The notes under the pieces are model-generated. The model did no database searches, was not told the origin of the DNA, and saw only the letters and a list, made by a program, of their open reading frames with translations. This document shows, piece after piece, positions 14,510 through 16,769 of a stretch of 54,870 bases of DNA. The stretch is from an uncultured Granulosicoccus sp. Lineage in GTDB: Bacteria > Pseudomonadota > Gammaproteobacteria > Granulosicoccales > Granulosicoccaceae. The translations under genes were made by a program, and so were the position numbers. The stretch's first letter is position 1, and every line of letters starts with the position of its first letter. Where the stretch lies: assembly GCA_937924505.1 (NCBI GenBank), contig CALDSR010000071.1, forward strand, positions 1 through 54,870. The letters are read 5' to 3'.

Positions 14510-15097
14510 ATGGCACACACTGTCGACTACTATCATTTTTTGATCTCCCCATGGAGCTACCTGGCCATCAGTCAGTTCAACGAGATCAAGCAAAAGACCG
14601 GTGCTAATGTCAATTATTACCCTATCGATGTCATGTCTACTTTTGGCAATATGGGTGGACAACCTCCTGCACAGCGTCATCCATCGCGGCAGAAATTTCG
14701 CATGGATGAACTCAAGCGCTGGTCAAGCTACCTATCCATTCCCATGAATCTTACGCCTGCCTTTTTCCCAGCCGACCAATCCACCGCTGCCAAGATGGTT
14801 TATGCGACGACGGGTGAAGATGCGGCAACCTTGAGCGACGCCGTTTTGACGGCTGTCTGGCGAGATGAGAAAAACATTGCTGATCCGGATACACTGGTCG
14901 CGATTGCCAATGAAGCGGGTCTGGATGGCCAGGCCTTGCTGGCTTCGAGTTCAGATGCATCCATGCAGGAGGCGTATGACGCCCGTACGGCACAGGCGCA
15001 TGAGCGCAATGTGTTTGGTTCTCCAAGCTGGATCGTCAATGATGAAATGTTCTGGGGTCAGGATCGACTCGACTTTCTTGAACGCGCACTAGCCTGA
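14510..15097 (+). CDS. 2-hydroxychromene-2-carboxylate isomerase-like (kappa-GST / DsbA fold)
   Basis: Cytosolic thioredoxin-fold protein of 195 residues. The N-terminal SPWSYLA with Ser near position 13 matches the glutathione-binding serine of the HCCA isomerase / kappa glutathione transferase family, and the C-terminal NVFGSPSWIVNDEMFWGQDRL is the family's cis-proline loop and end. Known members isomerise a naphthalene-degradation intermediate, but most genomic homologues, like this one with no aromatic-degradation neighbours, have no known substrate. Confidence 0.88.
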   Translation: MAHTVDYYHFLISPWSYLAISQFNEIKQKTGANVNYYPIDVMSTFGNMGGQPPAQRHPSRQKFRMDELKRWSSYLSIPMNLTPAFFPADQSTAAKMVYATTGEDAATLSDAVLTAVWRDEKNIADPDTLVAIANEAGLDGQALLASSSDASMQEAYDARTAQAHERNVFGSPSWIVNDEMFWGQDRLDFLERALA

Positions 15098-15143: not shown

Positions 15144-16769
15144 ATGATGATCCGAATAATTACGGCACTGATGCTGTTTTTTCTTGCCCCATATGTTTTA
15201 GCCGATACGTGTGAAGCGCCTGATTCAAGCCGGCCTTATCAGCTTGTCTTTGAAGAGAACTTCAATGGATCGACACTTGATCGTGGGCGCTGGAATACCG
15301 AGTTCTTGTGGGGGCCAGGTGTCATCATTAACAACGAAACGCAGTATTACGTCAATGACGGGCAGTTTGCTTATGATCCGTTTTCGATAACCGACGGTGT
15401 CTTGAGTATCTCCGCGATCAAGGCACCCTTTGATCGCAGCCTTTTGTATCTGACGCGTTCTATCTACTCTGCGAACACGGTTGAATTGTTGTGGCGGGTG
15501 CCCGCTGATGCTACATCCTATGAAATTTATCGCGATGGCGAGTTGCAAGGATCAGCGACCGGGGGCTCGTTTCTACAATCTGATCTGCGTGATGGTATCG
15601 ACTACGCCTACGAGGTTGTCGCGCTTGACAACAGTGGCAATCAGATCGTTGCCGCGCAGCTGACCGTTAATACTGCTGATCGGCCCATGCCGTCTCCGGA
15701 ACAAGCTTTCGGACTGGGTCTGGGGGCGAATGTGTATTCGGATACCAATGCTGAACTCGTCTGGCGTGCGCCGAACCGTGCTGGGTCTTATGTCGTTTAC
15801 CGCGATGGTGAACTGTATCGTACCTTGAGCAGCGGCAACTTCAAGAGCTTGTACGAAGTTGGGCTAGAGCCCGGCCGGACTTATGTTTACCGAGTCGAGG
15901 CTTATGACGCATGCGATGAATTGATCATCGCGGATCAAATTGATGTCAATACGGCTGACGGCATCACGCCTGCAGATAGCTCTGTTCAAAGACTGGTAAT
16001 TCGAGCAACCGAGTTTTCAAAATCAACTGCCGAGATAGCCTGGAATGCAGTTCAAGGTGCTCGTCAATATGATATTTATGACAATGAAGTGTTTATCGTG
16101 AACACAGATGGACGTTCATTGTTCATTGACGATCTTGTTCCGGGCATTGACAGAAAGTTCAGGGTTGTTGCACTCGATGCGGATGGCGCTGTACTTGACC
16201 AGACAACAAGAGTCCTGAACACAGCTGACAATAGTTTTGCTTTGAATCGACAGCCTTTTCTCTCCGGTGTTATCACCAGCTACGATTCATTCCGGTTTAA
16301 ATATGGTCGGATAGAGGCACGTGCACGAATGCCGGCAGGCAAAGGTCTCTGGAGTGCGTTCTGGTTACTGAATGCTTACTACAATCAGGATCAACCGGAA
16401 GATCCGGAAATTGACATCATCGAGGCTATCGGGGATGCAACAACCGTTGCCAATCATGCCTATCATTATTTCGAAGACTTCAACGGTGATGGTTTTTTTA
16501 ACAGCCTTGTGTCAAGCGAAGGGCGGGCTGCTATCAGCGATTTCTCCGCGGACTTCCATACCTACCGCGTTGACTGGGAGGAAGGTCGGATTGTCTGGTA
16601 CGTAGACGACGTCGAGACCCATCGTGTAGAAGGCCCACAAGTTTCAGATGAACAGATGTATCTCATCGCCAATCTGGCTGTTGGCGGTACGTTCCCGGGG
16701 CCTGCTGATGAGTCGACGCCTTTTCCAGCGAATTTTGAGATTGACTACATTCGGGTCTATCAGCGTTAA
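15144..16769 (+). CDS. Secreted GH16 glycoside hydrolase with three FN3-like repeats inserted in the catalytic domain
   Basis: Exported beta-glucanase-type enzyme of 541 residues. Residues 1-20 form a signal peptide. Residues 32-105 (LVFEENFNGSTLDRGRW, then NNETQYYVNDG) match the first strands of a GH16 domain; residues 370-541 hold the rest, including the catalytic motif EIDIIE with E422, D424 and E427, and end in the usual FEIDYIRVYQR. Between them lie three repeats of about 75-90 residues (near 107-178, 196-272, 287-362), each with a W-containing first strand, a YE/YVVYRDGEL-like turn and the closing VNTAD or LNTAD. Likely target is a beta-1,3 or mixed-linkage glucan (laminarin-like); kappa-carrageenan or agar types are less certain. 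Confidence 0.88.
   Translation: MMIRIITALMLFFLAPYVLADTCEAPDSSRPYQLVFEENFNGSTLDRGRWNTEFLWGPGVIINNETQYYVNDGQFAYDPFSITDGVLSISAIKAPFDRSLLYLTRSIYSANTVELLWRVPADATSYEIYRDGELQGSATGGSFLQSDLRDGIDYAYEVVALDNSGNQIVAAQLTVNTADRPMPSPEQAFGLGLGANVYSDTNAELVWRAPNRAGSYVVYRDGELYRTLSSGNFKSLYEVGLEPGRTYVYRVEAYDACDELIIADQIDVNTADGITPADSSVQRLVIRATEFSKSTAEIAWNAVQGARQYDIYDNEVFIVNTDGRSLFIDDLVPGIDRKFRVVALDADGAVLDQTTRVLNTADNSFALNRQPFLSGVITSYDSFRFKYGRIEARARMPAGKGLWSAFWLLNAYYNQDQPEDPEIDIIEAIGDATTVANHAYHYFEDFNGDGFFNSLVSSEGRAAISDFSADFHTYRVDWEEGRIVWYVDDVETHRVEGPQVSDEQMYLIANLAVGGTFPGPADESTPFPANFEIDYIRVYQR

Follow-up and report, generated by a model that had tools for sequence, protein, structure and literature searches.

A GH16 catalytic domain interrupted by three FN3-like domains in an uncultured Granulosicoccus

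The window analysed here, a stretch of 54,870 nucleotides from an uncultured Granulosicoccus sp. (assembly GCA_937924505.1, contig CALDSR010000071.1, positions 1 to 54,870, forward strand), contains a gene for a GH16 protein whose catalytic domain is interrupted by three FN3 domains. Homologues of this split protein were collected as the best 120 of 294 listed at E<=1e-3, with P0001 denoting the protein itself and P0002 its database copy. The parts of the gene are given below with the evidence by which each was delimited, including superposition of a predicted model and hidden Markov model (HMM) matches; counts of 56/56 refer to rows of the alignment.

15144..16769, + strand: whole split GH16 gene; ATG start, 541 amino acids plus stop, one open frame
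15144..15203, + strand: apparent signal peptide, residues 1-20; …VLA before DTC, without lipobox; read from the sequence by eye; model helix 2-12
15210..15212, + strand: C23, third residue of the predicted mature protein; 56/56
15213..15428, + strand: upstream half of the GH16 jelly roll, residues 24-95, strands to beta-4; blastp against three unsplit GH16 proteins, HMM, superposition
15429..15449, + strand: entry linker, residues 96-102; column identity
15450..15683, + strand: FN3-1, residues 103-180; Pfam fn3, model, VIA rows
15708..15959, + strand: FN3-2, residues 189-272, containing C257; profile cross-scores, model, VIA rows
15912..15914, + strand: C257 in FN3-2; 56/56
15987..16226, + strand: FN3-3, residues 282-361; Pfam GH85_C, profile cross-scores, model strand pattern (VIA rows barely cover it)
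16227..16256, + strand: exit linker, residues 362-371, with a short helix 364-369; model, column identity
16257..16766, + strand: downstream half of the GH16 jelly roll including the catalytic strand, residues 372-541; Pfam GH16, PDB laminarinases, superposition
16407..16424, + strand: EIDIIE, residues 422-427; E422, D424 and E427 each 56/56

The two GH16 halves and the inserted repeats

A sequence-only reading of the window had placed three FN3-like repeats inside a GH16 domain, and this architecture is borne out by homologues and the model, as well as by a sample of other GH16 proteins, 0/120 of which are split. In the model both halves pack as one beta-jelly-roll, the whole fold superposing on GH16 laminarinases, and residues 372-540 align to laminarinases of the PDB at E 1e-27 to 6e-29. 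That reading depended on the packing of the two halves, which was looked at in the model, where a single GH16 fold was found. Both flanking parts are indeed GH16 with adjusted limits: the upstream part, first given as 32-105, really spans about 24-95, residue 105 reaching past the entry linker into FN3-1, and the downstream part, first given as 370-541, starts at 372 after the exit linker. The EIDIIE motif lies at 422-427 as read, and the catalytic Glu, Asp, Glu and His are E422, D424, E427 and H441, each intact in 56/56 rows. Pfam GH16 (PF00722) matches residues 355-503 only (83.4 bits against a cut-off of 22), and since only the downstream half is recognised the protein looks like a truncated GH16 behind FN3, a misreading against which annotation should be warned.

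The kinship of the three repeats, each ending in NTAD (at residues 176, 269 and 359), is upheld by profile cross-scores over the 56-row alignment, in which each unit's profile gives its two companions median scores of 39-57 bits. Pfam fn3 matches two stretches of the protein, the best being 109-167 in FN3-1, scoring 31 bits on the protein and 34 on the insert alone (cut-off 25), and is found at E<=0.01 in 12/15 inserts; GH85_C, an FN3-like domain, matches 292-349. The VIA rows listed for the insert are likewise FN3 domains. An insert that binds glycans, its FN3 units acting like an inserted carbohydrate-binding module (CBM) such as CBM4 in GH10 Xyn10C/Pm25 or CBM58 in SusG, has in its favour that the closest architectural precedent found is tandem CBM4 in GH10, which aids complex-substrate degradation according to the excerpt used of PMC7848910; it appears unlikely, however, as the listed VIA rows are FN3 domains and the only Pfam hits in the insert to pass or approach cut-off were fn3 and GH85_C, with no CBM family recognised.

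The array may have arisen by local duplication or by capture of a ready-made array, and profile scores do not separate the two: 47 other FN3 segments score medians of 22-34 bits with the insert-unit profiles, the best of them reaching 52-62. Long open reading frames (ORFs) in the same genomes (L023-L030) carry runs of the same FN3 type with no GH16 half found and are possible array donors. The two GH16 halves and the insert are equal in G+C (0.500, 0.501 and 0.504) and so bear no trace of recent transfer.

Rarity, distribution and origin of the insertion

The split form was set against 36 unsplit ORFs holding 41 GH16 domains, four plasmid-borne and 32 of Granulosicoccaceae type, hand-picked among the matches listed, with paralogues taken from genomes of relatives. 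In these ORFs the gap between the half-profiles is 5-50 residues and no FN3 lies between the GH16 halves; 17 of the 32 Granulosicoccaceae-type ORFs have FN3 in front. The repeats could have belonged to a normal N-terminal module, which was not found: paralogues with FN3 in front keep an unbroken GH16. The second sample covered a part of GH16, namely the best 120 out of 7463 hits near four unsplit GH16 query proteins, and showed gaps of 14-70 residues in 120/120. As read from these sequences, GH16 proteins differ in the length of the beta4-beta5 loop, which in the split protein has come to house three domains. In the split family the half-to-half gap is 266-281 residues in 119/121 sequences (P0001 and P0002 both counted), the remaining two giving no half-profile pair; two members, P0061 and P0120, are without an N-terminus.

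GH16 and FN3 proteins have expanded greatly in the lineage: 24-62 sequences in each of the genomes G001-G012 match the GH16/FN3 alignment. Among unsplit proteins, L043, L044, L045, L046, L058 and P0143 have two tandem GH16 domains with a beta4-beta5 loop of 33-50 residues, up to 70 in P0143; since the loop is long here too, it seems a favoured place for growth. The paralogue L037 has PRVFIAE instead of PEIDIxE at the catalytic strand, and is probably without hydrolase activity, perhaps serving as a binding protein.

All 12 loci in genome contigs, Granulosicoccaceae by title, carry the split form, with one full-length match per genome. Across the order 19/48 genomes carry one full-length match each, and 29/48 have none at E<=1e-80, 12 of these holding at least 29 GH16/FN3 candidates; as presence is patchy, the split GH16 is not claimed as a core gene. 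A scan of 369 genomes drawn from the class, with scoring restricted to the top three candidates of each genome, gave matches at E<=1e-62 in three genomes, all already known. A mis-assembly or chimeric ORF found no supporting evidence and is already refuted, because the same architecture recurs in one open frame at the 12 loci, in the 19 order genomes and on independent metagenome contigs.

In a tree of the catalytic halves without the insert, the 15 split rows form one clade (100/100), beside which stand 26 unsplit rows that come from genomes of the same kind (joint node 97/81; 26-row group 91/80), giving a single origin in the sampled rows. The gene order MFS, DsbA-like, split GH16 is kept at 10/12 loci, the other two contigs beginning 2.6-2.9 kb upstream. 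Given the single split clade, the spread and the gene order, a single insertion that was then passed on by descent is the best reading. The upstream neighbour in the window (14510-15097) matches Pfam DSBA and starts …FLISPWSYL, with no evident CxxC there; we take it to be more like a 2-hydroxychromene-2-carboxylate isomerase type than a disulphide oxidase.

Mean column identity is 81% at the entry linker (96-104) and 90% at the exit (362-372); FN3-1, -2 and -3 stand at 72, 61 and 67% and the catalytic halves at 76 and 80%. Constraint is thus stronger on the junctions and on the FN3 units adjoining the catalytic domain than on the middle unit. These figures bear on whether the insert sits tolerated and near-neutral in a permissive loop, as a spacer or stabiliser fixed by chance and without effect on catalysis or binding. 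Such drift would suit a loop whose length is free to differ among relatives (5-50 residues, and as many as 70 in the second sample) and an FN3-2 that is the least conserved part, and GH33 sialidases have an inserted beta domain in the catalytic domain which, in the part of PMC11525138 drawn on, is judged without effect on activity in NanI and NanJ. Linkers more conserved than the FN3 domains, together with an invariant cysteine pair, nevertheless point to a maintained spatial relation, and the insert varies little in length, leaving a neutral spacer conceivable but somewhat unlikely.

The insertion site, the cysteine pair and a putative arm

The insert lies directly ahead of SGVITSYDSFRFKYGRIEAR, as the sequence-only reading had it. 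In the laminarinase ULam111, beta-4 (55-63) belongs to the outer sheet B and beta-5 (66-73) to the cleft sheet A (PMC5595797); model strand 86-93 and strands 372-374/376-378 correspond to these, so that the insert sits in the beta4-beta5 connection. Arg71 of ULam111 is named, in the section consulted of the same paper, as probably hydrogen-bonding sugar. V376 corresponds to it by match range and faces the Arg of SARL in the residue alignment to 2hyk, position 376 being I, V, M or A in 55/56 rows. Because the strand after the insert carries this position, the earlier placement at the edge of the substrate groove is reasonable, resting on the ULam111 strand list and the site of Arg71; the altered binding of long glucans suggested along with it is a conjecture. 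In the 12 closest fetched paralogues (L031-L042) the receiving site reads IKTP, 7-9 residues, (G/N)QPYLSGVITSYDS; in the split protein it reads IKAP, 276 residues (96-371), FLSGVITSYDS.

P0001 has two cysteines, C23 and C257, both invariant in the alignment. These two and no other mature-part cysteines occur in 116/118 sequences starting ADTC, the remaining two sequences having three; P0034 starts AETC and has two. L031-L042 lack cysteines downstream of the lipobox (nine ORFs) or, where no lipobox was recognised (three ORFs), within the catalytic part. Most simply, C23 and C257 would form a disulphide that joins the mature N-terminus to the middle FN3 and was gained with the split. A bridge between molecules, giving a covalent dimer or an anchor to a partner, could draw on two invariant cysteines and no others in 116/118 sequences, but for one conserved pair in a single exported chain an internal disulphide is the simplest explanation and no partner gene is apparent at the loci; such a bridge is quite unlikely. 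The invariant pair and the single-origin family trait are new here, beyond what was noted before. Seven unsplit ORFs (L051-L054, L057, L061, L062) have a pair of cysteines, spaced ~10-11 residues, within or next to the same beta4-beta5 loop, which suggests a loop disulphide of their own.

Taken together, the protein is probably a laminarinase-type GH16 whose beta4-beta5 loop gained a three-FN3 array once, since inherited, as a cysteine-stapled fixed arm beside the groove. It would be an exported beta-glucanase, predicted to be catalytically competent, with the array placed at the side wall of the substrate groove and gained in the ancestor of this Granulosicoccaceae lineage. The putative disulphide would pin the middle FN3 to the N-terminal end of the catalytic domain, and the array, held at both junctions and by this staple, would act as a fixed arm and not as a flexible tail. 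More tentatively, the arm may be a structural surface extension that shapes or guards the negative-subsite side of the groove and spaces the catalytic face from its surroundings, rather than a CBM of a known family. The substrate is likely a beta-1,3-glucan such as laminarin, or mixed-linkage glucan. Granulosicoccus is described, in the portion used of PMC10233909, as an abundant genus on macroalgae, making algal glucan a sensible first substrate.

Several points weigh against this account. FN3 domains often serve as mere spacers. Modelled alone, the insert reaches a predicted local distance difference test (pLDDT) score of 88.2 and a predicted template modelling (pTM) score of 0.52; the latter value leaves the mutual placement of the FN3 domains uncertain and speaks against a rigid arm. 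Stretches 56-60 and 412-415 of the catalytic domain lie at pLDDT <50. Cysteines also occur, at other places, in ten further unsplit ORFs of the same sister group, so that their presence by itself does not set the split form apart. The third tryptophan of the GH16_3 pattern and the ULam111 Arg are absent, which makes the substrate less sure than the fold. A further step, in which the disulphide-latched arm belongs to the groove itself, a mobile accessory array having become a fixed wall of a jelly-roll glycosidase so that the redox state of C23-C257 changes binding or cutting, is doubtful. Overall the observation is real: the predicted enzyme chemistry is ordinary, the architecture unusual.

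Comparison with known systems

GH16_3 is marked by a beta-bulge ExDxxE and a largely conserved WPA ... WXX ... WPX, as given in the part of PMC6827312 drawn on. EIDIIE agrees with the ExDx(x)E motif of GH16 and with the beta-bulge form, but the tryptophans agree only in part (WSA at 403-405, WLL at 407-409, no W between 410 and 421), for which reason the protein is called laminarinase-like and is not filed as GH16_3. The laminarinases 2hyk (Nocardiopsis BglF), 3azx/4dfs (Thermotoga) and 5wut (ULam111) share with it the whole jelly roll, ExDxxE with beta-bulge and the catalytic His; they differ in an uninterrupted catalytic domain, in WPA where it has WSA, and in the WPX tryptophan and the Arg of SAR which it lacks. 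The multidomain beta-1,3(4)-glucanase 7ww4/7wwc and CapGH16_3 (8va4) also have GH16 near the C-terminus. Suggested by sequence as split precedents, these were rejected, as their GH16 aligns uninterrupted (241-483 and 135-380). EglC (NCBIfam NF052454), a two-stretch hit, was likewise rejected at 138.9 bits against a cut-off of 700; the Sinorhizobium fredii EglC example ORF has an unbroken GH16 with 46 residues between the HMM halves. No GH16 split by FN3 was found described in the open-licence literature searched, an earlier description elsewhere being possible, and the main text of PMC6827312 has no word beginning 'insert', 'fibronectin' or 'FN3'.

Modules inserted inside a catalytic domain are described for GH10 Xyn10C/Pm25 (two CBM4 in tandem) and SusG (CBM58) in the excerpt of PMC7848910. 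These share the layout of an inserted accessory module, but have other folds and CBMs with tested binding, whereas the present protein carries FN3 in a jelly roll. It shows that accessory domains can be built into an enzyme core rather than appended at its end, a rare arrangement here inherited by relatives. Domain insertion is a route by which enzymes reach new surfaces, and natural examples whose close unbroken paralogues lie in the same genomes make useful material of an uncommon kind. With FN3-in-front paralogues and a clear receiving loop of 7-9 residues at hand, the effect of moving an accessory domain into the catalytic core is directly testable by loop swap. The Granulosicoccaceae paralogues with FN3 in front (e.g. 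L031, L041) have catalytic halves about 43-56% identical to those of the split protein, with IK(T/A)P ... QP(Y/F)LSGVITSYDS around the site and the same general FN3 type; unlike it, they have an unbroken GH16 with the 7-9-residue loop, FN3 upstream in 11/12 and a lipobox in 9/12.
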